From assembly GCA_029209985.1 (NCBI GenBank), contig JARGNZ010000015.1, forward strand, positions 1-64,000: a stretch of DNA of 64,000 nt, given 5' to 3'. The stretch comes from Parvibaculaceae bacterium (GTDB lineage: Bacteria; Pseudomonadota; Alphaproteobacteria; Parvibaculales; Parvibaculaceae). Both the position numbers and the translations under genes were made by a program. Each line of letters opens with the position of its first letter. Within the stretch, counting starts at the first letter, position 1. The notes beneath the pieces were generated by a model that was given only the letters and a program-made list of their open reading frames with translations, was not told the origin of the DNA and ran no database searches. Positions 9,224 to 60,064 of this stretch are shown one piece after another.

Positions 9224-12200
9224 ATGCAAAAGAACCTCGTTATTACAGGTGCCCGTGAGCACAATCTGAAAAACATCAGCATTGAACTGCCGCGCGACAA
9301 GCTGGTCGTGATTACGGGCCTTTCAGGCTCAGGAAAATCATCCTTGGCTTTCGACACAATTTACGCTGAAGGCCAGCGCCGCTATGTAGAAAGTCTTTCT
9401 GCATACGCCCGGCAGTTTTTGGAAATGATGCAAAAGCCGGATGTCGACCAGATCGACGGCCTGTCACCCGCCATTTCCATTGAACAGAAAACCACCTCCC
9501 GCAATCCCCGCTCGACGGTGGGCACAGTCACGGAAATCTACGACTATATGCGCCTGCTGTGGGCGCGGATCGGCATTCCCTATTCACCGACAACCGGCCT
9601 ACCCATCGAAAGCCAAACCGTGAGCCAAATGGTCGATAAGATTATGGCCCTTCCAGAAGGCACCCGGCTTTATCTCCTCGCCCCCATCGTGCGGGGCCGC
9701 AAAGGCGAATACAAAAAGGAATTTGCCGAGCTGATGAAGAAGGGGTTTCAGCGGGTCAAAATTGACGGCACATTCTATGAATTAGAAGACTCTCCTGCCC
9801 TCGACAAAAAATTCAAACATAATATTGATGTTGTTGTGGACCGCCTCGTCGTACGTGAAGACCTCGGCAACCGAGTTGCAGATTCCATGGAAATCGCCCT
9901 GCAATTAACCGATGGCATCGCCGTGGCTGAATTGGCCGACAAAACCGACGATGAAACAGACCCAGAACGCATAGTCTTTTCGTCACGCTTTGCCTGCCCT
10001 GTCTCCGGCTTTACAATCGACGAAATCGAACCCCGCTTGTTCTCCTTCAACAATCCATTTGGCGCGTGCCCCTCATGCGATGGTTTGGGCACCCAATATA
10101 TCATCGACCCAGAACTGGTGATCCCGGATGCAAATCTTTCAATGAAAGACGGCGCTGTCGCTCCGTGGTCAAAATCAACCTCGCCCTACTACACCCAAAC
10201 CCTCCAAGCCATTGCCGATCATTATGGGTTTTCCTTCTTTGACCCTTGGAACAAAATTCCCAAGCAGGGCCGCCAAGCCGTGCTTTATGGGTCTGGAGAA
10301 GATGTCATTACCTTCTCCTACGATGATGGTATGCGCTCATACAAAACCAAAAAGCCATTTGAAGGGGTGATCCCAAATTTAGAACGCCGCTGGCGCGAAA
10401 CCGATAGCGCGTGGTCCCGTGAGGAAATTGAGAAATTCCAAGATGTAACCGCCTGTGACAGTTGCAACGGCTACCGGCTCAAAGACGAAGCCCTTGCGGT
10501 TAAAGTGGACCACAAACACATCGGCGAAATTTCACAGCTTTCGATCAAAGACGCGAACACATGGTATCTCGACCTTGAAAAGCGTCTCACCAAAAAACAA
10601 AGAGCAATTGGCGAACGTGTCCTTAAAGAAATTCGCGAACGTCTCCACTTCCTCAACAATGTTGGCTTGGACTACCTGTCTCTGTCACGTAATTCTGGCA
10701 CTTTGTCTGGTGGGGAATCCCAACGCATTCGGCTTGCCTCACAAATTGGCTCTGGCCTAACCGGTGTCTTATACGTCCTTGATGAGCCATCCATCGGCCT
10801 GCACCAACGCGATAATGATCGCCTGCTAGAAACCCTTAAACGCCTTCGTGATTTAGGCAATACCGTCATCGTCGTAGAGCACGATGAAGATGCCATTCGC
10901 GCCGCTGATTATGTTGTAGATATCGGGCCAGGTGCAGGTATTCACGGGGGAGAAATCACCGCCAAGGGAACACCCAAACAAGTCATGTCCAACCCGGACA
11001 GCCTAACCGGGCAATACCTGACAGGCGTGCAACAAATTGAAGTGCCGTCCGCCCGCCGCCCTTTTTCAGAGAAACGCGCAGTGTCTGTGCACGGCGCCAA
11101 AGGTAACAACCTCAAAAATGTGAGCGCCACCATTCCACTCGGTACATTCACCTGTGTCACTGGCGTGTCAGGCGGTGGCAAATCAACCCTGCTCATCGAA
11201 ACCATCTATAAAGGCATGGCCCGCAAGCTTAACAACGCCCGCGACCATCCCTCATCATTTGATCGCCTTGAAGGGTTAGAGCATCTCGATAAAATCATCG
11301 ACATTGACCAGTCGCCGATTGGCCGCACCCCGCGCTCCAACCCCGCCACATACACCGGTTCCTTCACACACATCAGAGACTGGTTTGCAGGATTGCCCGA
11401 AGCAAAAGCCCGTGGCTATAAACCCGGTCGCTTTTCTTTCAACGTAAAAGGCGGACGGTGTGAAGCCTGCCAAGGGGACGGTGTTATCAAAATTGAAATG
11501 CACTTCCTGCCAGATGTGTATGTGGAGTGCGACACCTGCCACGGGGCGCGTTACAACCGCGAAACCTTAGAAGTAAAGTTCAAAGATAAGTCCATTGCAG
11601 ACATTCTTGATATGACAGTTGATGAAGCCGCGTCCTTCTTTAAAGCGGTGCCAACCGTACGCGAGAAAATGGACGTGCTCAAACGTGTTGGCTTGGGCTA
11701 CATCAAAGTAGGCCAGCAAGCCACCACCCTATCAGGGGGGGAGGCACAACGGGTCAAACTTGCCAAAGAACTTTCCCGTCGCGCAACAGGCCGCACTTTT
11801 TACATTCTTGACGAACCAACCACCGGTCTTCATTTTCATGATGTTAAAAAGCTCCTCGATGTTCTCCATGAGCTTGTCGATACCGGCAATACAGTCGCAG
11901 TGATTGAACACAATTTGGAAGTTATCAAGACAGCCGATTGGCTTATTGACCTTGGCCCTGAAGGCGGCGATGGCGGCGGTGAAATCGTGGCTGTTGGCAC
12001 ACCAGAAGAAGTGGCCGAAGAACCACGCTCCTACACCGGGCACTATCTCAAAGAAGTTCTAAAACGTCAGAAAGGACGCGGCCCTGCCCGCAAAGTTTCT
12101 CAAAGAATTCAAGTGCCCATCCCGCCCACAGCTGCTGAACGCAAAGCCGCTGCAAAAAGTGAAGCTGCCCAAAAGAAGACCGCCGCCAAAACAACAAAAA

Positions 12201-46740: not shown

Positions 46741-48060
46741 CTATGCCAAAGCACGCCGACTCATGATTTCATCATTTGAGTTTTTCCTCGCCTTAAAGCG
46801 ATCAGCCGCCAAAATGCACCCCCAGCTGCTGCCAAAAAGGAAATAGAGGTGGCGCCAATTATCAACATCAATGATAAGCGCCTCCCCCACATGGGCCATC
46901 GTCACCGCTAATGAAATCATCAAAAACCCACGGCCCGGAAAATCAATTTTCAGCGCCCCTAGCCCACGCACAAAGGTGAGAACAAGAAAGCCCAAATAAC
47001 TCAAAATCGACAAGTAGCCCCCCGCGACAAAAATGCTCAAATAAACATTGTGCGGGTCCGTGGCATAAAGCCCCGACCATTGCGCCGGACCAATCCCCAA
47101 TGGATTACTCGTTCCCACTTCCAACGCTCGGGCTTGCGTCCAAAACCGCCCTTGCTCTTCCACATCATAAGATTGCACAAGCGAAAAACGGTCAATGAAG
47201 TGCGCCGCAACCACAGGGTCACTCAAAGCAAATGAAATCACGGCAACGGCCACAACCACCAAACCAATCAACAAGAAGAGAAGCCGGTCAGTTTGCTGCT
47301 TGCCGTGCGGCGTCGCCAACATAAAGCCCACATAAAAGAGCAATGAAACAATCAGGTTTGCCCACGCTCCCCGTGAAAAGCTGAGAAAAAGTCCCAGAAT
47401 AAGCGTCCCAACAACAGGAAACAGTAATACATCGCGTCCCCGTCGTGTAAGGGTCAACTTGTGCAGCACATAAAGCACTGGCGCGACCAAATACGGACCA
47501 AAAACATTGGGATCGTTAAACGTCGCCGTCGGACGGTCATACCGTAAAAAGAACTGATAGTTCGGAATGGCGTGAAAATATGCCAGCGTACCAATCGCAG
47601 CGGCAATAAAAGCTGCCAGCAGATAGCCATTCCACAGCACTTGAAGGTGACGATGCGGGTCCGCACAAATGACGCTGGTAAAAAAGATAAAAGTCAAAAT
47701 CAGATAGATAACAACGACCGTATAACTTTGGGCCTCACTAGGCGTATGAGCCTTAAAACTCCCGACAGCATACCCAACCAACAACAGCCCCCAAAACAGC
47801 ATCGGCCACGCCAAGCCCTTGGGCAAGCGCAGCCCAAACAGAAAGAAGCTTGCCACCATCGGCACCATCAACAGATCGTAGAACGTTGGTTGCGCAACTT
47901 CCTTCACATCACTTTTCAAATAGAAGCTAATTGACATCACGACGAACAGGGCAGCCAATGCAATGTTGGCCCATACGCCTTTGTGCCAAAAGGCTTCCTG
48001 CCCGTCACGCTCAACACGCGGGGCACTTGGTGCAGGTTGCATTGCCCAGCCATCGCTCAT
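46741..48060 (-). CDS. O-antigen ligase/polymerase-like membrane protein (Wzy/WaaL family)
   Basis: A 439-residue polytopic protein with about eleven hydrophobic segments. Its largest periplasmic loop (near residues 275-330) holds RFWTQARALEVGTSNPLGIGPAQWS and DPHNVYLSIFVAGGYLS, the conserved pattern of the O-antigen ligase/Wzy_C domain with its PHN motif. It probably polymerises or ligates the polysaccharide made by this locus. It overlaps the glycosyltransferase gene by 4 bases. Confidence 0.85.
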   Translation of the reverse strand: MSDGWAMQPAPSAPRVERDGQEAFWHKGVWANIALAALFVVMSISFYLKSDVKEVAQPTFYDLLMVPMVASFFLFGLRLPKGLAWPMLFWGLLLVGYAVGSFKAHTPSEAQSYTVVVIYLILTFIFFTSVICADPHRHLQVLWNGYLLAAFIAAAIGTLAYFHAIPNYQFFLRYDRPTATFNDPNVFGPYLVAPVLYVLHKLTLTRRGRDVLLFPVVGTLILGLFLSFSRGAWANLIVSLLFYVGFMLATPHGKQQTDRLLFLLIGLVVVAVAVISFALSDPVVAAHFIDRFSLVQSYDVEEQGRFWTQARALEVGTSNPLGIGPAQWSGLYATDPHNVYLSIFVAGGYLSILSYLGFLVLTFVRGLGALKIDFPGRGFLMISLAVTMAHVGEALIIDVDNWRHLYFLFGSSWGCILAADRFKARKNSNDEIMSRRALA

Positions 48061-49244
48061 GCCGAACCTGCTTTCCCTAAGCCGCCGTTCGTCACGTTCC
48101 CCGCCGCTTCCCGGTCCAATTCCTCCAACAATTCGCTATAAAACCGGTTGATTTGCGTGACCATATGATGAGCCGAAAAGCCGGACAACATCTGCCTACG
48201 CAACTCTGCTGCCACCACATGATACCCATCCGGTGCATCCAAAAAGGCAGTCATCGCACGCGATAAAGCCGCAACAGATTTCGGTTCAATCAGGCGAGAA
48301 GACAACGTCCCAAATATCTCGCCAATGCCCCCAACGTCAGTGGTGATAAGCGGTCGAGAGGCCCCTGCCGCCTCCAAAACTACATACGGCAAAGATTCGT
48401 GATGCGACGGCATCACCACACAGCGGCCCAAAGCAAAAGCCGCCCGTGCAGGCATAGGCGCTTCAAACCGCACGCAGTCTTCCAAGCCAAGCGAGCGCGC
48501 CTGCGCTTTGAACATCTCCGCATCAGGACCAGACCCAACCAAAACGGCCGTAACCGGCTTTGACAGTTTCAAGATTGAGAGCGCCTCAAGCAGCTCCCCC
48601 ACCCCTTTAAGCGTCCGCAACTCGCCTAAAAAGACAAAGTCAGCAGCCGTTGCAGAAGTTTCAAGAGAATCAAACTCAGAGGCCGTGATGCCATTATGAA
48701 TGACCCTCACCTGCTCCGGCATTTTACCAATAATCTGGGAAAAGCGGTCTTGCCCAAATTGAGATTCAAAAATAATGCCTTCAGTCCGCCGCAATAAAAA
48801 CCGCTCAACTGAGTGGTACAAAAGCCCCGCAGGACTACGCGGTGAAAAATGAAGGGATCCCCCATGCGGTGTATAAAGCCGAACACGCCCCTTGGCCTTT
48901 GGCATCAACCGCGCGTAAGCCCCTCCCTTTGCACCATGTCCATGCACAACATCAGGAAGAAGCCGCTCGGTTACCTCACGCAAAGCGCGCACAGCATGAA
49001 CATCGCCCACTCCCGCATGCCGGCTCATAGAAATCCGGTGTACCCCTAACGAACAATGGTCCGCCAACTCATCTAATCGGCCCTCTGATAAGGGATCAGA
49101 GGCATTCCTTTCACACACAACGCCAACATCATACCCAGCCTCAGCCTGTCCTTGAACAACATCGCGCACATGGCGGAAAAGCCCCCCTAAGGGAGCCCGC
49201 ATCGTATGCAACACACGCAATCTGGGAAGAAAAAAACCGTCCAT
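48057..49244 (-). CDS. GT4-family glycosyltransferase
   Basis: A 395-residue GT-B-fold glycosyltransferase. The N-terminal half has LHTMRAPLGGLFRHVRDVVQ and VHGHGAKGGAYARL (donor/acceptor loop). The C-terminal half has FVFLGELRTLKGVGELLEAL and the GT4 EX7E region around MPSHHESLPYVVLEAAGASR (about 287-306). It adds a sugar to the lipid-linked intermediate of the exopolysaccharide. Only one such enzyme is in the locus, so others must be encoded elsewhere. Confidence 0.88.
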   Translation of the reverse strand: MDGFFLPRLRVLHTMRAPLGGLFRHVRDVVQGQAEAGYDVGVVCERNASDPLSEGRLDELADHCSLGVHRISMSRHAGVGDVHAVRALREVTERLLPDVVHGHGAKGGAYARLMPKAKGRVRLYTPHGGSLHFSPRSPAGLLYHSVERFLLRRTEGIIFESQFGQDRFSQIIGKMPEQVRVIHNGITASEFDSLETSATAADFVFLGELRTLKGVGELLEALSILKLSKPVTAVLVGSGPDAEMFKAQARSLGLEDCVRFEAPMPARAAFALGRCVVMPSHHESLPYVVLEAAGASRPLITTDVGGIGEIFGTLSSRLIEPKSVAALSRAMTAFLDAPDGYHVVAAELRRQMLSGFSAHHMVTQINRFYSELLEELDREAAGNVTNGGLGKAGSA

Positions 49245-49253
49245 GGTGCCTCG

Positions 49254-49823
49254 TTAGAAAAACCGTTCTTCAATTAAAATCGTATCGCCCGGCAAAACTG
49301 AATGATTAGCGGGCACCCTCAATTCAACGATGCTCTCATTGCGCTTACGCGTAATCAGCGCATCAGATTCATTGGCCCGAAACGTAAAACCACCCGCAAT
49401 CGCCACAGCAGTTTGCACCGTCATCCCAGACACAAAGGGGAATTGGCCGGGTCTGTTCACCTCGCCCAAAATAAAGAAGGGCCGGTAGTTGAGAATTTCC
49501 ACGCTCACATTCGGATTGCGAAGCAATGTTTGCCCTAAAATGGCAACCAATTCGGTTTCAAGCTGCTGGGTGCTTAACCCACGCGTTTGCACAGGCTCCA
49601 TCAAAGGAATGGAGATAAACCCGGACCCATCAACCGCATATTCCCCCGAAAGGTCCTCTTGCCCGAAAATCACAATACGGAGCTGATCACCGCTATCGAG
49701 GGCATAAGGTGTGCTGGCTTCAGCAAGGGGCTGAGTGCTGACAACAGAGCTACTCGCACACCCGCCCAAACTGACAGCCAAGACTCCGATTATCCCTATG
49801 AAACGAACCACAAACCCTGGCAT
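49254..49823 (-). CDS. polysaccharide export outer-membrane lipoprotein (Wza/BexD type)
   Basis: A 189-residue lipoprotein with lipobox SLGGC at about residues 18-22, then a poly-export domain (YALDSGDQLRIVIFGQEDLSG) and one SLBB domain (FFILGEVNRPGQFPFVSGM). It is shorter than E. coli Wza and lacks its last transmembrane helix domain, like BexD/GumB types. I use the second ATG (49823), which has AGAGGA at a normal distance. First gene of the minus-strand EPS trio, divergent from the co-polymerase gene. Confidence 0.88.
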   Translation of the reverse strand: MPGFVVRFIGIIGVLAVSLGGCASSSVVSTQPLAEASTPYALDSGDQLRIVIFGQEDLSGEYAVDGSGFISIPLMEPVQTRGLSTQQLETELVAILGQTLLRNPNVSVEILNYRPFFILGEVNRPGQFPFVSGMTVQTAVAIAGGFTFRANESDALITRKRNESIVELRVPANHSVLPGDTILIEERFF

Positions 49824-49910
49824 CGTCATTCCTCTCTATATTGCTCTTGCTTAAAATTAGGCTGCTAGGGTTAATAAAGATTGAGTTTCCAACCAGTCTG
49901 CTCAGCTAAA

Positions 49911-49928
49911 TGCATGTAATTACCTGCA
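49911..49928. promoter_or_regulatory. palindromic candidate operator between divergent EPS genes
   Basis: TGCAtGTAATTACcTGCA is an 18-bp palindrome with a single mismatched pair around the perfect core GTAATTAC. It lies about 90 bases from the export-lipoprotein start and about 115 bases from the co-polymerase start, in the middle of their shared intergenic region. A dimeric repressor or activator bound here could control both transcripts. I did not find a second copy at the other genes of the locus. Confidence 0.4.
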
Positions 49929-50042
49929 AAACGGCCAACATTAAGAAATTCGTTACCTAAACGACATTTACTAAGCTTGTCTCAGATTCTGTTTTGAGCA
50001 CCTCATGAGGGCGACCTCGCGTTAAGGACAGCAGTTAAGTAA

Positions 50043-52223
50043 ATGGCAGAACGCAATACATCAGCACTCGCACCAAATCAGGTTATCTTCGGAGACCGGC
50101 GTCGCCGCACCTCTGAGGCTGATGGCGCGGGCGACATCAACCCATGGGAGTTGATGCGAGGCATTTGGGCACGCAAAGAGATTGTTCTGATGACGTTTCT
50201 TGCGGTCTTCGCTCTAGGCATTTTTTGGTTGAGCACTCTTGTACCAACCTACACTGTCGAAACTTTACTCTTGATCGAACCGCGCATCGGAGAGATTTCA
50301 CGCTTTGACGAAACAAATAATTTGAGCACACCAGACAAAGGTTTTGTCGAAAGTGAAATTCAAATCATTTCTTCATATGAGCAGTTGAACAAACTTGCCG
50401 AAAAGCTGTCGCTCAGTACATATCCAGAATTTGCACAACAGAAAAAAACCAAAGACAAAACGGGCGTGTCGAAAGTTTCAACAGTCCCAAGCACACCAAC
50501 AAAGCTTGTTGAAAAACTGCGCGAAAATCTCAATATCATGCGCCGTGGAGAATCTCGGGTTATCTCCATTCAGTACACGTCTAAGGACCCAGTTCTCGCA
50601 ACAAAAATTGCCAATGAGCTGGCCACCCTCTACATTCAACAACAAATCTCAGAGCGCATGACCGTGCACCGGCAAGCGATCGATTGGTTGTCTTCACAAA
50701 TTGAAAGCCTGCGCAAAAGAACCACAACGTCTGAAACCGCTGTTGAAAGTTTTAGAACGAAATCTGGTTTGTTTGAAGCCAATGGCGCAACATTGCCTCA
50801 ACGCGAGCTCTCAGAAGTCAGCACACAACTGGTCTTGGCAGAAGCTGCACAATCTGAAGCAACAGCGCGCTTAGAATTGGCAGAGGACCTAATCGCCTCC
50901 CCAGAAGGCCGTGACAGCGCCGCCGAAGTTTTGCAGTCCTCCCTCATCCAAACCTTGCGGGCGCGGGAAGTTGAAATCAAAGCACAAATCAGCGAGATGT
51001 CGACAAACCTCTTGCCGCAACATCCGCGCATGGTGACAGCTCAAGCCAATTTGAGAGATTTGCAGTCAGAGATTGAATCCGAGATTACCAAAATTCTGCA
51101 AGCCTTGGAAAATGAATCCCAAGTGGCAGCTGCACGGGTGGCCTCCCTGCACCGCAATGTCAATCGCCTCAAAAGAAAACTGGGCCTGATGAACAAAGAG
51201 GAAGTGACCTTACGCGCATACGAACGCGAGGCCGCAGCCAACAGAACATTGCTCGAAAGCTTTCTCACCCGTTACGAGGAGGCACTTGCGCGTATGCAAG
51301 CCGATACACAAGCGGCGAATGCGCGTATTCTATCCAAAGCTCACACGCCGCTTAATCCCTCTTTTCCACGCAAAACACCAATGCTCATTCTCACAATCTT
51401 AGGGGCCGTATCATTGTCCCTTATGGTGGCCTTTGTGATGGAAGTATTCTCGTCTGGTTTTCGCACAGCCGATCAAGTGGAGCGCATTACGGGGATGCCC
51501 TTCCTAGGTCTTTTGCCTAAGGCGCGCGGCAATAACCCTGCAACGGCCGCTGCCGAAGTTCTCCATGCACCAAATGGTTTAATGGCAGAAAGCTTGCGCG
51601 GCCTTCTCGGTCACATCTTGTTAGCCCAAGTTGATGGTCGCCCTGCAAAAAGCCTGTTGGTAGCATCATCCGTACCCGGAGAAGGAAAATCTCCTGTAGC
51701 CATGGGCCTTGCCCGTATTATGGCCATGGGTGGTTATCAGGTTCTCGTCATCGATGCAGATATGCGGCGTCCCGTTCAAAGCTATATCGCCGGGATTGGC
51801 AACGGCCCCGGTTTGGCTGAGCTTTTGTCTGGCCGCGCTGAATTTATGCAAACAATTCGTCAAGATACTGCCTCCACCGTGCACGTTCTCCAGACAGGTG
51901 GAGAACTTGGAAACTCCACAGCCGCTCTTGGTTCCGAGCGCATGGCATGGATTATGGACACCCTTGGAAAACGATATGACTTCATCATTGTAGATTCACC
52001 CGCCATGAGCACAGCCGCTGATGGACAAGTCTTGGCGCGTATCTGCGACCTCACCTTGTTGGCTGTCCGTTGGGGTGTTACGGATCGGAAAGTAGTGCAG
52101 CGGGTTCTCAAAACCCTCTCAAGCGGCTCAGGTCGCCGCGCAGGCATCATGCTCACCGGCGTGGACATGAAGCGGTATCGCAAACGCGGCGCACAAACCG
52201 TTTTGGATCCAAACCTGCGTTAA
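50043..52223 (+). CDS. polysaccharide co-polymerase/tyrosine-kinase fusion (Wzc/GumC-like)
   Basis: A 726-residue inner-membrane protein that sets chain length and works with the export lipoprotein. It has a Wzz-type N-terminus with a membrane helix at about 46-67, long periplasmic coiled coils (about 190-420, GNVR-type), a second helix near 440-462, and a C-terminal ATPase. The ATPase shows Walker A VPGEGKS at about 542-548, Walker A' VLVIDADMRRP near 568-578 and Walker B DFIIVDSPA. The C-terminal tail carries only one Tyr (MKRYRKRG), not the usual tyrosine cluster of BY-kinases, so kinase self-control may be lost or different. Confidence 0.9.
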   Translation: MAERNTSALAPNQVIFGDRRRRTSEADGAGDINPWELMRGIWARKEIVLMTFLAVFALGIFWLSTLVPTYTVETLLLIEPRIGEISRFDETNNLSTPDKGFVESEIQIISSYEQLNKLAEKLSLSTYPEFAQQKKTKDKTGVSKVSTVPSTPTKLVEKLRENLNIMRRGESRVISIQYTSKDPVLATKIANELATLYIQQQISERMTVHRQAIDWLSSQIESLRKRTTTSETAVESFRTKSGLFEANGATLPQRELSEVSTQLVLAEAAQSEATARLELAEDLIASPEGRDSAAEVLQSSLIQTLRAREVEIKAQISEMSTNLLPQHPRMVTAQANLRDLQSEIESEITKILQALENESQVAAARVASLHRNVNRLKRKLGLMNKEEVTLRAYEREAAANRTLLESFLTRYEEALARMQADTQAANARILSKAHTPLNPSFPRKTPMLILTILGAVSLSLMVAFVMEVFSSGFRTADQVERITGMPFLGLLPKARGNNPATAAAEVLHAPNGLMAESLRGLLGHILLAQVDGRPAKSLLVASSVPGEGKSPVAMGLARIMAMGGYQVLVIDADMRRPVQSYIAGIGNGPGLAELLSGRAEFMQTIRQDTASTVHVLQTGGELGNSTAALGSERMAWIMDTLGKRYDFIIVDSPAMSTAADGQVLARICDLTLLAVRWGVTDRKVVQRVLKTLSSGSGRRAGIMLTGVDMKRYRKRGAQTVLDPNLR

Positions 52224-52281
52224 ACCAACAGGTCCGAGACCATTCATGCATGCACGTCATATGAATCACTGATCAACGCGG

Positions 52282-53658
52282 TCAGGATAGTTTTGGCCAA
52301 TTAAGAAAGACAAAACTTGTCATGCCAAGGCGCCGTTTCAGCATAATCACCAACAACGACGTTCCCACCACATACGACAAAGCCGTCGCCATGGCCGCCC
52401 CCTGCATACCGTAGTCTGGGATCAACAACGCGTTGAAGCACAAGTTCACAATCCCCGCAGTCCCTAAAGCCATCAGCGATGCATTCTGATTGCCAGTCAT
52501 ATTCAATAAATACTCAATAGGCCCAACCGTGTTGCGCACCAACAAGCCACCAACAAGAATAATCATGGCCACATAGCCAACTTCGAAGCCTTCCCCAAAC
52601 CAACTCAAAACCCACGGGCCAAAAGCCAACAAAAACAGGAATGCCCCAAGTGTTGGCCAAAACATGAGATGCGCAATGCCTTTCATAAACGCATTCAGCT
52701 CATCAAGAGCACCCAATGCATGAAGACGGGAAAAGCGCGGCGCGGCAATCGACACCGCAGCAAATTGAATAAAGCACACGAGATTATGAATACGCGTTGC
52801 GGAGAAATAAACGCCCACAACATCGGGGTCCTTAAAGTACCCCAGCATAATCATATCCATATTGGCTAAGATCAATTCAAATGTGCAGATCAAAATAAGC
52901 GGCGCTGAATAAATCACCCATGCCCGTGTTTGGTATGCAGGCTCAGCCGCCACAACTGTTTTTTTAATTTTGTGCGACAACAAAACCCGTTGCACCGTCA
53001 TGGAAACAGCAATCGCGGCAATCGCCGCCCAAATAGCCATGACCGCATTCGCCGACCCATAAAGAAAATAACCAGCGCCTGTAAAGAGCACCACCATGAG
53101 GGGGCGGAAAATATAGTTGGGCACATAGGCAAAGTTCATCCAACCAAAGCCGCGCGCCACTCCTTCTTGCACATCAGCTACAGAAAATAACGGGACAAAA
53201 ATCATCCCTGTGAGCAGCGGTAAAACGTAATACGCTTCTATTTGATCTGATAGCAGCCAAATCACGAGGGCGCCCATCAAGGCCGAAGCAATACTGGAAA
53301 CAATAGGTAAGAACGTGACCACACGCATGACGCCGTGAAGGTGTGGCCAATCTTCTTTGCCTAGATATTCAGCGACAAATTTTACAGCCCCGTCATTCAG
53401 GCCCATGGGCGCGACAAGCGCCAACATATAGATCCACACCCAAACATAAGCGTAAATGCCATATTCAAAAAGACCCAACCAGCGCGCTAGAAAGATTTGC
53501 ACAAGCAGTGTGCCAAGCCCGCCCGTCAGGCGAATGGCCATCACTAAGCCAGCCCCCTTTAAGGTAGAAAGAAGGTCTGCGGCTTCCAAACGCGCCACCA
53601 CCCGCTCAAACTTAGAACGCAAGGTCGTCTTCTCTGTGGGTATCTCGGGGGCAGACAT
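52282..53658 (-). CDS. polysaccharide flippase (MATE/Wzx-like)
   Basis: A membrane protein of about 458 residues with roughly fourteen hydrophobic segments, of the MOP/polysaccharide-transport family. LVMAIRLTGGLGTLLVQIFLARWLG and NDGAVKFVAEYLG are typical of Wzx-like flippases, which turn lipid-linked repeat units over the inner membrane. I use the ATG at 53658; a GTG 33 bases upstream is possible. The cytoplasmic N-terminus is about 35 residues. It lies between the co-polymerase and acyltransferase genes of the EPS locus. Confidence 0.87.
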   Translation of the reverse strand: MSAPEIPTEKTTLRSKFERVVARLEAADLLSTLKGAGLVMAIRLTGGLGTLLVQIFLARWLGLFEYGIYAYVWVWIYMLALVAPMGLNDGAVKFVAEYLGKEDWPHLHGVMRVVTFLPIVSSIASALMGALVIWLLSDQIEAYYVLPLLTGMIFVPLFSVADVQEGVARGFGWMNFAYVPNYIFRPLMVVLFTGAGYFLYGSANAVMAIWAAIAAIAVSMTVQRVLLSHKIKKTVVAAEPAYQTRAWVIYSAPLILICTFELILANMDMIMLGYFKDPDVVGVYFSATRIHNLVCFIQFAAVSIAAPRFSRLHALGALDELNAFMKGIAHLMFWPTLGAFLFLLAFGPWVLSWFGEGFEVGYVAMIILVGGLLVRNTVGPIEYLLNMTGNQNASLMALGTAGIVNLCFNALLIPDYGMQGAAMATALSYVVGTSLLVIMLKRRLGMTSFVFLNWPKLS

Positions 53659-53707
53659 GCCTACACTTAAACTCCTTGGGCGCTTTGACACGCAATGCTA
53701 AACCGCA

Positions 53708-54994
53708 TTAAGGCAGCTTAGCGCGCACAGCAGCAACCTTTGCCCGTGCTTTGCGATACATTTCCCACAATGCAGGTGTCTGCTTGATAAACCGTTTCAT
53801 TTTGCGCTGAACCAGGTGCGGAGCAACAAAAATCAGGCCCAATAAGCTATTTGCCGACAAGTGATCGTAAAGATCAATGCTGCTATCGGCCCATGAAAGC
53901 TTATACCGCTCATCGCCGATGGTAAAATCAAACACATCAATGTTGTTTTCCGCAGCCCATTTAATGATTTTATTAAGCTGAAATGTGCCCGGCGCAAAGC
54001 GTGAGAGTTCATTTTGAACGTAAGACGCCATCACATAGTAGTAGCGACCTTTGAAGACGATGCCCCAATTTGTCGCTTGGCATTCATCATTGACCCGCAA
54101 CTCAGTCACTTGCGTAATGTGGCGCGTATCATCTTGGGTCGCCAGAGCGCGGTAAAAATCTCCATTGCCATTCTGCTCAAAAATATTGGCAACACCCATA
54201 GCCGCAAAGCTTTTTGTCTTCATATCAATCAAGCGATTGATACAGGCTTTGATCTCATCCACGTCTTCATGCACAAGAAAATCAATCGGCCCAGCTTCCG
54301 TCAACTTGCGTTCTCTTTTGCGCTCACGTGCACGCCCGCTTTTGCTCTTCTTGTCTGCGTATAGCTCATCAAAGTCAGGAACCAAGGAGACGCTATGGGC
54401 ACCACTTGCATTCACTGAATGGCTCAGCTCCAACATCGGGTTGCGCTGTCCACTCACCAACTCTGGCTGCTTTGAAAGATCGGACACATCAAAGGAAGGC
54501 AAAGTCCGTAAAATCTCACGCCACAAGGCTTTGAACTCACCAGCGGCAATGTGCTTGCGAAAAGCTTTAGAGAGCAACGGCGCATTATAGTCGGCCAAAG
54601 GAGTGCCCAACCAAGCAAGGCGGTGCACCATAGAACTGCGCACAATCGCCAGCGGCAGCATGAACAAAACCTCACCGGCACCAGAACGGCCAATAACAAT
54701 CGCAGGCTCATATTTGAGTTGTTCACCAATGCATGTCAGCCATGTAGAAAGCCACTCATAGGATTGAAACACATAGCAATCCCCTTCGGTCTGCAATTTT
54801 AACCAAATATCTTTGATTTCAGACAAGTCATGATGAAGCGATAACTGCACTGGCGAACGGTCCTGCGTGGTTTTCCCAGGCAACCCAACCGGTGAAAGAC
54901 GGCGTGCCTGACCTTTATGATCGCTCATCCCCGTCGTATCGCGAAGATAAATATCAGACGTTGCTTTTGAAATGCCTTTTTCAACAAGTGCCAT
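53708..54994 (-). CDS. BioF2/FemAB-type acyltransferase (CelD-like) of the EPS locus
   Basis: A 428-residue protein. I use the ATG at 54994, with GGAG six bases upstream; a start 33 bases earlier is possible. Two GNAT folds in FemAB arrangement are suggested. The C-terminal one (about 225-400) includes MASYVQNELSRFAPGTFQLN and DVFDFTIGDERYKLSW, as in Acetyltransf_6 proteins found in cellulose and capsule loci. It probably adds an acyl or aminoacyl group to the polysaccharide. It is divergent from the deacetylase gene, with 163 bases between. Confidence 0.8.
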   Translation of the reverse strand: MALVEKGISKATSDIYLRDTTGMSDHKGQARRLSPVGLPGKTTQDRSPVQLSLHHDLSEIKDIWLKLQTEGDCYVFQSYEWLSTWLTCIGEQLKYEPAIVIGRSGAGEVLFMLPLAIVRSSMVHRLAWLGTPLADYNAPLLSKAFRKHIAAGEFKALWREILRTLPSFDVSDLSKQPELVSGQRNPMLELSHSVNASGAHSVSLVPDFDELYADKKSKSGRARERKRERKLTEAGPIDFLVHEDVDEIKACINRLIDMKTKSFAAMGVANIFEQNGNGDFYRALATQDDTRHITQVTELRVNDECQATNWGIVFKGRYYYVMASYVQNELSRFAPGTFQLNKIIKWAAENNIDVFDFTIGDERYKLSWADSSIDLYDHLSANSLLGLIFVAPHLVQRKMKRFIKQTPALWEMYRKARAKVAAVRAKLP

Positions 54995-55156
54995 TTTGAG
55001 CTCCAAAACTGTTCCAATTTGAAACATTTTTCTGTGTGAATGCTACTGTCCTCAATTATTTCTCAATAAAGAACAGTCATTCTTGTTTTAGGAGAAGCGT
55101 TGCAAGCCGCGTGCTAGTTAGCGCTTTAAGGGCACCCAGACTAAACGAGCATTAAG

Positions 55157-56206
55157 ATGAATCAGACGGCTTTATTGAAAAAAGTCATGGCAATGATGCA
55201 CATGACAAGACTGCATCACCTCGCGCCAGAATCCGTGCAAGGTGTCGGCGTCATTTTCATGCTGCACCGCGTGCGCAAAGAGCCTGTACCAGAGTTTTCG
55301 CCCAATCGAATTCTTGAGATCACCCCTGAGTTTTTAACAGATGTAATCGATCTCGCAAAATCACTCGATTACGATATCGTCACCCTCGATGAAGCAATCC
55401 ATCGTCTGCAACATCGTAAATTCAAACGCCGGTTTGCCACTTTCACACTTGATGATGGTTATGAGGACAACGTCACCCAAGCCTTACCCGTTTTTGAACG
55501 CAACGATGTGCCCTTTACTGTTTACCTAAACTCCGGCATGCCAGACGGCACCGCAGAGTTATGGTGGTTAGGTTTAGAACAAACCATCCAACGCGCAGAA
55601 CACCTTACCTGCACACTGGAAGGCATTCAGTACGACTTACCGTGCACAACAGCTCAAGAAAAAGATGCCGCCTTTTCGACCCTCTATTGGCCAGTACGGC
55701 GTTTACCTGAAACCGAAATACGAGATTTCGTCCGCGAGTTAGCGGCCCGTCACGACATTGAATTGTTGAGCATCACCCGTGAAGCATCCATGAGTTGGGA
55801 CCAAGCCCGTGTTCTCCATGCACATCCGCTTGCCACTGTAGGCTCCCATACGGTCGATCACTTTGCCATGCGCAATCTTGACGAACTAACCGCCCGTCGT
55901 GAGGTGCTCCAATGCAACCGCCGGATTCAAGAAGAGCTGGGTTTTATGCCAGAGCACTTTGCCTATCCCTATGGGGATGCAAGCTCGGCTGGAAAGCGAG
56001 ATTTCAAAATAATCCAAGATTTGGGGTTCAAAAGCGCTGTCACAACCCGCAAAGGCTTGTTGATGCCCAAACACGGCAAAGCATATACATCCCTGCCGCG
56101 CCTCTCACTCAATGGGGATTATCAGGACCTCAGGTTTATTGAAGTTTTACTCAGCGGACTGCCCTTCGCGATGGCACAAGCAATCCCAAAATTTGGCACA
56201 GGCTGA
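55157..56206 (+). CDS. polysaccharide deacetylase (NodB homology)
   Basis: A 349-residue carbohydrate esterase 4 protein. The metal/catalytic block FATFTLDDGYEDN is at about 94-106 (catalytic Asp and metal Asp) and the second block VGSHTVDHFAM at about 230-240 (two metal His). FAYPYGDASSAGKRD follows near 272-286. There is no clear signal peptide, so it may act on the lipid-linked unit in the cytoplasm or be exported without a classical signal. It removes N- or O-acetyl groups and so works opposite to the divergent acyltransferase. Confidence 0.87.
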   Translation: MNQTALLKKVMAMMHMTRLHHLAPESVQGVGVIFMLHRVRKEPVPEFSPNRILEITPEFLTDVIDLAKSLDYDIVTLDEAIHRLQHRKFKRRFATFTLDDGYEDNVTQALPVFERNDVPFTVYLNSGMPDGTAELWWLGLEQTIQRAEHLTCTLEGIQYDLPCTTAQEKDAAFSTLYWPVRRLPETEIRDFVRELAARHDIELLSITREASMSWDQARVLHAHPLATVGSHTVDHFAMRNLDELTARREVLQCNRRIQEELGFMPEHFAYPYGDASSAGKRDFKIIQDLGFKSAVTTRKGLLMPKHGKAYTSLPRLSLNGDYQDLRFIEVLLSGLPFAMAQAIPKFGTG

Positions 56207-56682: not shown

Positions 56683-56758
56683 TCCCCAGTAGCTCAGTTG
56701 GTAGAGCAAGCGACTGTTAATCGCTTTGTCGCTGGTTCGAGTCCGGCCTGGGGAGCCA
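56683..56758 (+). tRNA. tRNA-Asn (anticodon GTT)
   Basis: A 76-nt cloverleaf with acceptor stem TCCCCAG/CTGGGGA, D arm AGCTCAGTTGGTAGAGC, anticodon stem GCGAC/GTCGC-type with loop CTGTTAA (GTT), T arm GGTTCGAGTCC and an encoded CCA. A strong terminator follows five bases later. Confidence 0.97.
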
Positions 56759-56817: not shown

Positions 56818-58917
56818 TCAATGCACTTTGAGAGACTGAATGGTTTTGACCCCCGCCATTGCGGCAAGGCTCAACCGATCAATACCGTTGGGATAATCGA
56901 GCGCCCCCGGCGATAGGTCCGCTAAATAAACTTCATTCAAAAACACAGAAAAATAGGTCCCGCCGTCCGTCCCCGTTACCTCAAGTCGGAAGGTCGCTTC
57001 AATGTCATCAGGCCAATTGGTAGCCGATGCAGCTTCATACAAAGTAGCCCCCTCTTTTCGGATGCATAAGCTCACCGCCCCACCACTCGTTCTGCGGAGC
57101 TCAACACAATTATTGCCGTTTCCGTCCACCAGCAGGACCGCATGTTGTCCAGCCGTCCTGCCAAAAGCAGCCCGCTGCTCAACAACAACGCCGGGTTTAA
57201 GCTCCCGCAGGCTTGCACGATGAATATCAAAATATGCGCCGGAAGCATCGCAAAACCCAGCCGCGCCAAAATATAATGTTGGGGCGCTCGCCACAAAAAA
57301 AGCCTCCAGCACCACTCCAGCATCCGGCGTGTCATAAGACACATTCAACAGATAAGGCCCGTCGTGCACCCCCTCTGTTTCTCCCACACGCACAGAAAAT
57401 GTATTCGTTCCAACAGACATGTTCCCCGTATCGCCAGAAAATTCAGCCGCATAAACTTTCCCCGCACACACAGCCACCGGCACCGACGCACTTGGGTTTT
57501 CCCACCCCGTCAACGCCACCTGAAGGTGCCCATCCACAACGCTTAAAGCACTGCTGCCATTGCCGACCCATCCATCTGTCGTCACAAATCCCTCGGCACC
57601 CTGAAAGACAAATTCTTTAGGATGCAAATCCCCCTGATGGTCATACTCATCCCATGGCACGACCTGCCGCAACCCTGCAGCAACAGCGATCACACCTTCT
57701 CCCACAACAGATGAAAATGGACCAACCCCGAGCACCGGCACTGCGACGGCAAAGGCAGGTGTAAACTCAAATGTAATTGTGTAGATGTCCCCGTCCAATC
57801 GTTGCTCCAGAATGTCAACGACACAGCCTGTTTGTTCGGTAACCGTTAAGCTGCCCGCAAGACCGCTCAAATGAGCGCTAACAAGTGTCGTCTCCGTATC
57901 ATTCAAAACAAGCAAAGCCTTACCAGATGTACCGACCTTATAAGTGACGTCACCTTTATAAGTCACTCCCTCGCTCCAAGCACGGGCCGAGGTTATGGCC
58001 CGATGTTCAACCCCGCCGCCACTCTCAACATGCACGACCCCATCGAGCCCTGCTGTTACCGTAGCCCCAAATGCTGACCATTCATCAGGATGTGCCCCAT
58101 AATACAGCAGGTTTTCACCCACCCCTTTTTCAAGCACAGGGCAATCAGCCAACCGCGTGCCCTCTGCATGAGGGGATAAGCTTGCCTGATTGGTGACATC
58201 CATCCAAAGAACATAAATAAATTCGCCCCCCTCAAGTACAGGCTGCGTAACCCCGGCAGCATTCGTAAGGGCCAGCCCTGCGTTTTGGGCACCTCCTGGA
58301 CTATCGTCCACAGCCCAAATCAGATACCACCCATCAGCAAGCGGCATCGCGCCCGTTTCAACAACAGATTCTGGAACGTGCACAAAAGCAGCGCTATCAA
58401 AATCAAACACCGAATAAGGCGTTGATCCCAAAGTAAGCGACCGTAAACCCACGTATGGATAATTTCCCTTTTTCACAACCGCCGATACGGTGTGCAGCCC
58501 CGCTATGACCGTCAGGCTTTGTCGAACAAAAACGTAACCGGACGTGGATAGCACCTCAACCTTGGTCACCTGATCTAAATTGGCGGGGTTACTCAAAGCA
58601 ACCAAACTACCCGAAACATTCGCCCCATAAGCCCACGCTGCATGGCAGAGGTTGGAAGGGTTAGAGAATAAGTTTGTCACCTCCCCACTCACCTGCACCC
58701 CATTCCCGTCTAGCATCACAAGCTCACCAGCCGCATATTCACGGTAACGTCCATCATCGTGAAGCCCCCACCCGCACGACGCTCTTTCTTCCGTCAACCG
58801 TGCAAGCGCATCACTTGGATGAAATTGATTGAGGTTAAAATTAAAGACAGCGCGCCACCCCGACCACCACGCAGAAAACCGATTGGCCAGACCAACCCCA
58901 AAAGAAAAGCCGTGCAT
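56818..58917 (-). CDS. phage/GTA head-spike fibre-like protein
   Basis: A 699-residue beta-rich structural protein, presumably on the surface of a virus-like particle. It shows the pattern of head-spike fibres: an N-terminal anchoring part (about 1-70), a repeat unit with VTNLFSNPSNLCHAAW, VKKGNYPYVGLRSLTLG and LADGWYLIWAVDDS (about 80-210), further jelly-roll-like modules, and a lectin-like C-terminal domain (AAFGRTAGQHAVLLVDGNG, FRLEVTGTDGGTYFSVFLNE). It lies just after the spike-base gene with a TGATG junction, as GhsA/GhsB of the Rhodobacter gene transfer agent. No other phage gene is near. A prophage tail fibre is the alternative. Confidence 0.7.
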   Translation of the reverse strand: MHGFSFGVGLANRFSAWWSGWRAVFNFNLNQFHPSDALARLTEERASCGWGLHDDGRYREYAAGELVMLDGNGVQVSGEVTNLFSNPSNLCHAAWAYGANVSGSLVALSNPANLDQVTKVEVLSTSGYVFVRQSLTVIAGLHTVSAVVKKGNYPYVGLRSLTLGSTPYSVFDFDSAAFVHVPESVVETGAMPLADGWYLIWAVDDSPGGAQNAGLALTNAAGVTQPVLEGGEFIYVLWMDVTNQASLSPHAEGTRLADCPVLEKGVGENLLYYGAHPDEWSAFGATVTAGLDGVVHVESGGGVEHRAITSARAWSEGVTYKGDVTYKVGTSGKALLVLNDTETTLVSAHLSGLAGSLTVTEQTGCVVDILEQRLDGDIYTITFEFTPAFAVAVPVLGVGPFSSVVGEGVIAVAAGLRQVVPWDEYDHQGDLHPKEFVFQGAEGFVTTDGWVGNGSSALSVVDGHLQVALTGWENPSASVPVAVCAGKVYAAEFSGDTGNMSVGTNTFSVRVGETEGVHDGPYLLNVSYDTPDAGVVLEAFFVASAPTLYFGAAGFCDASGAYFDIHRASLRELKPGVVVEQRAAFGRTAGQHAVLLVDGNGNNCVELRRTSGGAVSLCIRKEGATLYEAASATNWPDDIEATFRLEVTGTDGGTYFSVFLNEVYLADLSPGALDYPNGIDRLSLAAMAGVKTIQSLKVH

Positions 58918-59183
58918 CAGAAGAACCCCACAATGGTTGTTGCCGTTGTGCCGGTTGCCAATATTTTCTTGATGCGCCCTCCATAATCGACACCTGCAAT
59001 CCGGCCTGGCAACACAACGCTTTCAGTATCGTCAACAAACACAACTGCCAGATCGCCTGACCCGCCCACCGTATAACCGCGCAACGAAGAGCTCAGCTCT
59101 GCCGCATCGTTCGGGGTAATTGTCACAGCGCGTACCGCCGGACTGCTAAGCCCAACAGCATGGTTTTCAAATTTATCCGCCAT
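58917..59183 (-). CDS. GTA head-spike base protein (Rcc01079 family)
   Basis: An 88-residue protein. I take the ATG at 59183 (MADKFENHAVGLSSP), with AGGA before it; a longer frame adds 15 unrelated residues. The blocks AVTITPNDAAELSSSLRGY, VGGSGDLAVVFVDDTESVVL and the end RIKKILATGTTATTIVGFF match what I know of the Rcc01079-type spike base, which attaches spike fibres to gene-transfer-agent heads. The TGATG overlap with the fibre gene suggests translational coupling. In Rhodobacter these two genes are also outside the main GTA cluster. Confidence 0.78.
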   Translation of the reverse strand: MADKFENHAVGLSSPAVRAVTITPNDAAELSSSLRGYTVGGSGDLAVVFVDDTESVVLPGRIAGVDYGGRIKKILATGTTATTIVGFF

Positions 59184-59416
59184 CCAGAAATCCTCTCCAT
59201 CGTAGGCGCTCTCCATCAAGCGCTTCATTTTTCAAGAACCGCAATCGTCACACAGTTTTTAGAAGCGGGAATAACTCCCAACAGAAGGGTGAATATTGGA
59301 ATGAGTGACGAAGAGGTCGAGACCAATTTCGTTCCAAAGACGATGTTCCCAAGCAGCTAAATCATCCTTGCCGGGGTCACCTGCCGGGCCTAAAATAAAG
59401 TCCCTAAATTGGAGCC

Positions 59417-60064
59417 ATGTCCTTGCCAAAAAAGTTAGAACCAAGCAAACGCACCCTTGAGGATGTAGATGTCATCTCCCGCGAGGTTGTTTTCAAAGAA
59501 TGGAGCACAGTTGAAAAGGCAACTTTTCGCCATAAACGCTTCGATGGCACATGGTCAGCCCCCGTGACACGCGAACTGCATTATGTTGGTGAAGTCGTCA
59601 ATGTCTTAGCATGGGACCCAAGCACAGATTATGTGGTCCTTGTCGAGCAATACCGTCCCCCCGGCATTGTCCACAACGAAGCATCTTGGTTGTTTGAATG
59701 CATTGCAGGCCTAATCGACACCGACAATGAAACACCCGCAGATGTGGCTCGCCGCGAAGCAGAAGAAGAAGCCGGGTGCACCCTTCACGACCTGCAATTA
59801 ATCTCCCACCTATACACATCACCGGGAGCATGGACCGAAAAATCTTATCTATTTTTGGCCCAAGCAGACCTCTCAAACGTGGGGGGATTGCACGGATTAG
59901 AACATGAGCAAGAAGACATTCGCGCCGTTACCGTTCCCCATGAAGAGGCCATGAGGGCCGCAAATGATGGCCGTATCCGCGACGCAAAAACCATTCTCAT
60001 GTTGCAATGGTTGGCCTTAAACAAAGAAAAACTTCTAAAAACCGACGGATTCAAAATTTTGTAG
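59417..60064 (+). CDS. NUDIX hydrolase, ADP-ribose pyrophosphatase type
   Basis: A 215-residue NUDIX enzyme. The Nudix box runs from about 97 to 119 (GLIDTDNETPADVARREAEE then EAGC), with all the metal-binding Glu residues. VVLVEQYRPPGIVHNE upstream and YTSPGAWTEKSYLFLA downstream are typical of ADP-ribose/ADP-sugar pyrophosphatases (NudF group). GGAG lies directly before the start. cysK follows 90 bases later on the same strand. Confidence 0.9.
   Translation: MSLPKKLEPSKRTLEDVDVISREVVFKEWSTVEKATFRHKRFDGTWSAPVTRELHYVGEVVNVLAWDPSTDYVVLVEQYRPPGIVHNEASWLFECIAGLIDTDNETPADVARREAEEEAGCTLHDLQLISHLYTSPGAWTEKSYLFLAQADLSNVGGLHGLEHEQEDIRAVTVPHEEAMRAANDGRIRDAKTILMLQWLALNKEKLLKTDGFKIL

Follow-up and report, generated by a model that had tools for sequence, protein, structure and literature searches.

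What is a head-spike gene pair doing on a contig that appears to carry no other part of a phage or gene transfer agent (GTA)? The window that we analyzed is a stretch of 64,000 nucleotides from a 3.09 Mb Parvibaculaceae genome and makes up contig C26 (67 kb) except for its last 3.3 kb. Among its open reading frames (ORFs) of at least 150 aa, none was recognized as a capsid, portal, terminase, or tail gene, in keeping with the earlier claim, and reading of these ORFs together with the last 3.3 kb revealed no phage structural gene on C26. The two coupled ORFs, the TGATG junction between them, and the adjoining tRNA-Asn were all found where they had been described, with both ORFs on the minus strand:

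46741..56206, no strand assigned: Wzx/Wzy-type exopolysaccharide (EPS) locus (Wzy_C, GT4, Wza-like, Wzc-like, Wzx, GNAT, deacetylase; Pfam matches over curated cut-offs)
56683-56758, plus strand: tRNA-Asn(GTT), a neighbor only (ARAGORN)
56818..58917, minus strand: head-spike fiber, GhsB/Rcc01080-like in role, 699 aa (NF048003, TGATG overlap, N-terminal motif)
58888..58914, minus strand: fiber residues 2-10, HGFSFGVGL, predicted five-point-star peptide plugging the base pentamer (RcGTA register)
58917..59183, minus strand: head-spike base, GhsA/Rcc01079 family, 88 aa (NF048002, PDB 6tb9, structural model)
59110..59183, minus strand: approximate capsid-docking N-terminal segment of the base, about 24 aa (identity to Rcc01079; PMC7296036)

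Both spike ORFs are intact and tightly coupled, the stop codon of the base overlapping the fiber start (ATG at 58917) in the TGATG. The base starts at the ATG at 59183, with GGAGAGG just upstream; an alternative reading from 59228 gives 103 aa. The GC content of the module is 0.53, versus 0.51 in the window. A 61-aa open frame without an assigned family (59259-59444, minus strand; GDPGKDDLAAWEHRLWNEIGLDLF...) lies between the spike base and a nudix gene and could be a gene remnant.

The Base Belongs to the Rcc01079 Family and Has an RcGTA-like Docking Segment

The 88-residue protein, which had been taken for a spike base, matched NF048002 ("spike base, RCAP_Rcc01079 family") well above the curated cut-off (79.5 bits against 28, E = 1.7e-22) over positions 1-84 of the 85 in the model, and it also matched PHROG 12296 (1.4e-16). 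Its best match in the PDB was 6tb9, the RcGTA base Rcc01079 (E = 2.3e-9). An AlphaFold model built from 51 sequences (pLDDT 91.5) gave 6tb9_A1 as the top Foldseek match (TM 0.84/0.88, rmsd 1.6) and the spike base of phage Carin1 as the second, and the protein is predicted to have the jelly-roll fold of Rcc01079. The assignment as a spike base is thus upheld by both sequence and modeled fold.

In RcGTA, the N terminus of the base docks on the capsid (PMC7296036), and we divided the protein after residue 24 on the basis of this published role. The window base and Rcc01079 share 62% identity in the docking segment, more than any other of the 118 bases, versus 36% in the remainder; the viral mean for this segment is 35%, and the maximum among 91 viral or prophage bases is 58%. 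Bases from isolated modules were nearer to Rcc01079 than viral or prophage bases in the docking segment (p = 0.005) and not in the rest (p = 0.51), as judged by a Mann-Whitney test, which ignores phylogeny. The alignment places Ser in the window base at the position of RcGTA Glu12, a residue that coordinates a cation in capsid docking (PMC7296036). Because this cation reinforces attachment, and because Glu is likewise missing at this position in several bases whose genomes bear a GTA, we did not treat the residue as family-defining.

The Fiber Carries a Putative Anchor Peptide

A fiber had been predicted downstream of the base, and the 699-aa protein does match NF048003 above the curated cut-off (50.8 bits against 36, E = 2.8e-13). 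As NF048003 is not specific to spikes, and also has matches in controls from E. coli and B. subtilis, the fiber call rests equally on the position of the gene after the base and on the N terminus of its product. Cryo-EM of RcGTA shows fiber residues 2-10 (IALGLGLGL) as a star that fits into five hydrophobic pockets in the base pentamer (PMC7296036). Residues 2-10 of the window fiber, HGFSFGVGL, follow this alternation without a shift in register, with His in place of Ile at the first position. A strict form of the alternation pattern opens only 11 of 4290 background ORFs but 12 of the 54 viral fibers that adjoin a spike base. We found no phage homologue of the fiber by tblastn, no homologue in the fetched loci by phmmer, and no sequence match among solved structures; a single-sequence model had a pLDDT of 32 and was not interpreted. 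No signal peptide was evident by eye in either the base or the fiber.

A Complete RcGTA-type Cluster Is Encoded on Another Contig

The original prediction held that the pair forms a GTA head spike, and the family matches above the cut-offs are joined in support by the outcome of a search for a GTA cluster, in which the genome was probed one protein family at a time: contig C42, separate from C26, carries a full RcGTA-type head-tail cluster. It runs from small-terminase-like, TerL, portal, protease, and HK97 capsid genes through connector, head closure, tail tube, and tape measure genes to DUF2460, hub, and NlpC/P60 genes and a 1303-aa GTA_TIM megatron (484 bits), after which comes a DUF2793 gene. 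The major capsid protein matches Rcc01687 of RcGTA at 5.5e-91, and for all 15 GTA query proteins the relatives G003, G005, G006, G009, and G012 have counterparts in their own GTA clusters. The DUF2793 gene that follows the megatron gene corresponds to L013 1455-2198; in another locus (L049 4023-6079), a DUF2793 protein, a spike base, and a fiber are encoded in a row beside glycosyltransferase-like genes.

The genome also contains two prophage regions, one on contig C37 (terminase, major head protein, and tape-measure-like genes) and one on contig C36 (tail sheath). The expectation that there would be no neighboring prophage holds for C26, where none was recognized; the two regions on other contigs qualify it. 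By reading, the large tail-end genes of the C37 prophage could be its own fibers. A look for shared promoter motifs such as GafA or CtrA sites had also been proposed; the upstream DNA of the module and of the GTA cluster contained no CtrA half-site (TTAA) and no shared 10-mer.

The spike base is rare, occurring in 11 of 389 genomes class-wide. All 14 named genomes that have an isolated module gave a GTA_TIM match, versus 42 of 389 genomes across the class, a comparison that leaves out a fifteenth locus (L051) read as phage context and that draws on a sample biased toward GTA-like bases, the first spike-base alignment having been too diverse for database scans and a narrower one having been used. 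This co-occurrence and the docking segment, the most RcGTA-like of 118, both favor assignment of the module to the resident GTA.

The family is also common in viral contigs (230 confirmed relatives). One prophage (L017, G009:C1 at about 1.86-1.88 Mb) has its own spike base and a 750-aa fiber, and the same genome has an isolated GTA-type spike locus. At L018 9883-12234, in G006, a spike base has no fiber downstream, where there are other ORFs, one of them on the opposite strand; this suggests fiber loss. An isolated spike base in Jiella (L054 7550-10255) is preceded, at a distance of about 1 kb, by a gene for a phage-type lysozyme/amidase, and the two may belong to a joint module for lysis and spike. 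At G427:C39 14076-18758, two NF048003 matches fall within a single open frame of 1150 aa, a few kb from a second GTA_TIM match in a shorter frame; this suggests a fiber within a second GTA-like cluster.

Isolated Spike Genes Recur Beside Exopolysaccharide Genes

The module had been placed a few kb from an EPS locus. The locus is indeed nearby, but that distance understates its nearness: the polysaccharide deacetylase gene ends at 56206, 0.6 kb from the spike module, with the tRNA-Asn between them. In R. capsulatus, the spike genes adjoin the capsule genes and are regulated together with them (PMC10218006). Homologues of Wzc or Wza were found at 11 of 20 isolated spike loci versus 0 of 40 random 20-kb windows. 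After collapsing to genera, they were present within about 10 kb in 8 of 17 isolated spike lineages versus 0 of 40 (Fisher p = 1.5e-5), with the window's own EPS proteins as queries and the random windows drawn from eight of the same genomes. The searches were made in six frames because in GC-rich loci gene calling by longest ORF selects the wrong frames. Polysaccharide-related neighbors of other kinds (sugar transferase, Wzx/Wzy-like, UDP-glucose dehydrogenase, or sulfotransferase genes) occur in five further genera; we kept these out of the test because they were chosen by eye. The proposal that the EPS product is a candidate spike receptor is thereby strengthened beyond what had been supposed, both by the R. 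capsulatus precedent and by recurrence in other genera, and the adjacent EPS is the proposed receptor of the window spike. A limited search of the GTA literature turned up the R. capsulatus case only and no statement of a general linkage.

In three genomes (L031, L032, and L034, in G277, G217, and G147), a spike base and long fibers are encoded inside EPS loci. G147, and likewise G333, whose module (L033) lies beside polysaccharide genes, had no match to GTA_TIM, DUF2460, or the GTA-type capsid query; in G277 and G217 there is a GTA-like cluster that lacks a GTA_TIM match. In the EPS loci of three Rhodobacteraceae-type genomes (L041, L050, and L056, near 10000-11200), the base is followed by an apparent SppA-like protease gene and no fiber, and these read as orphan bases.

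The Module Was Probably Acquired Independently of That in a Sister Genus

Within Parvibaculaceae, the base occurs only in the window genome and in all seven members of the sister genus g3. The isolated spike locus of g3 (e.g., L015, L016, and L022) likewise consists of a base and fiber outside the GTA cluster of GTA-bearing genomes. It differs in lying beside murA, in being preceded by a PHROG_1544 protein, and in its fibers, and no EPS genes were found near it, unlike the window module. The g3 bases form one clade (98/88) with the window base outside it; the latter groups with Paracoccaceae and viral bases in a tree built from few columns and with rough support. Inheritance from the g3 locus was considered, and the other site, the other fiber, and the separate clade argue against it. 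The simplest reading is that the window module was probably acquired independently.

Next to the module lies a nudix-cysK-sulfurtransferase block that is conserved in the family. No tRNA-Asn was found near this block in the relatives scanned, and in the relatives inspected the ORFs upstream of it are not spike genes. Integration at the tRNA-Asn is not supported: the 3' end of the tRNA gene has no second copy in the window, even with up to 3 mismatches allowed, and no flanking repeat fits. Because there is no attachment-site duplication, we do not take the nearness of the tRNA-Asn as evidence of integration.

Discussion

The module is likely to be a trans-encoded head spike of the RcGTA-type GTA whose structural cluster lies elsewhere in the same genome. 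In this model, the spike would co-assemble with the resident GTA capsid, five base subunits docking through their N termini on each capsid pentamer, and each base pentamer would hold one fiber, anchored by the alternating hydrophobic N-terminal peptide. The rest of the fiber would be flexible and variable, probably with several carbohydrate-binding domains, and would bind reversibly to a surface polysaccharide of the recipient as the initial contact. The sugar recognized would most plausibly be the EPS of the adjacent locus, and expression of the module would be coordinated with that of the GTA. We count against this reading the position of the base in the tree, the replacement of Glu12 by Ser, the two prophage regions, the lack of a shared promoter motif, the unspecific NF048003 match, the lack of a fiber homologue, and the unpredicted fold of the fiber.

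The pair could instead be a remnant of a lost prophage, kept by chance beside the tRNA and now unused. tRNAs are common integration sites, the base family is widespread in viral contigs and has a member inside the G009 prophage, and the window base groups with viral bases. We nevertheless consider such an origin improbable: no other phage gene was recognized on the 67-kb contig, no att duplication was found, both ORFs are intact and coupled with a GC content close to that of the window, the docking segment is unusually RcGTA-like, and isolated modules track genomes with a GTA. The module might also serve the C37 or C36 prophage in trans. Those prophages do exist, but they lie on other contigs, C37 may have fibers of its own, the phage spike pairs that we saw (L017 and L036) sit inside their phage, and the docking similarity points to a GTA capsid, making this arrangement very unlikely. 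Least probable of all is a role apart from any particle, for example in a cell-surface or secreted polysaccharide-binding complex. The recurrent placement of modules inside EPS loci would fit such a role, as would the modules of G147 and G333, for which the searches gave neither GTA_TIM nor DUF2460 nor a GTA-type capsid; however, neither protein has a signal peptide evident by eye, the base keeps its capsid-docking segment and the fiber its anchor peptide, and the association with GTA genomes again points to a particle.

A trans-encoded GTA spike is a known kind of module. GhsA/GhsB (Rcc01079/Rcc01080) of Rhodobacter capsulatus resembles the window pair in the family, fold, and size of the base, in the adjacency of base and fiber with an alternating hydrophobic fiber N terminus, and in being encoded apart from the head-tail cluster and beside a capsule or exopolysaccharide locus. 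The window system differs in its longer fiber (699 aa versus 325 aa), in the Ser that replaces the docking Glu12, in the tRNA between the module and the EPS genes, and in having no CtrA half-site found upstream. Phage head-spike pairs (the L017 prophage, RcapNL, and Carin1, PDB 8cjz) have a homologous base, with an adjacent fiber in L017, but lie within a phage genome and have a docking segment that is on average less RcGTA-like. The module adds a second Parvibaculaceae lineage to those with trans-encoded spikes, and it suggests that spike replacement takes place through uptake from phages.

Beyond the module itself, the recurrent linkage of spike genes to genes for a putative receptor stands out. 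On how costly GTA production might be guarded against exploitation by non-kin or cheaters, it has been argued that specific receptors confine GTA delivery to close relatives (PMC10883770). We tentatively raise the idea, which may well not hold, that linkage of GTA spike genes to a receptor-polysaccharide locus is a general, selected arrangement in Alphaproteobacteria that forms a co-inherited, greenbeard-like ligand-receptor pair. If so, gene transfer would be aimed at cells bearing the producer's own polysaccharide, and spike and receptor could be exchanged together. General inheritance of spike genes with the receptor locus would provide a simple genetic basis for kin targeting.
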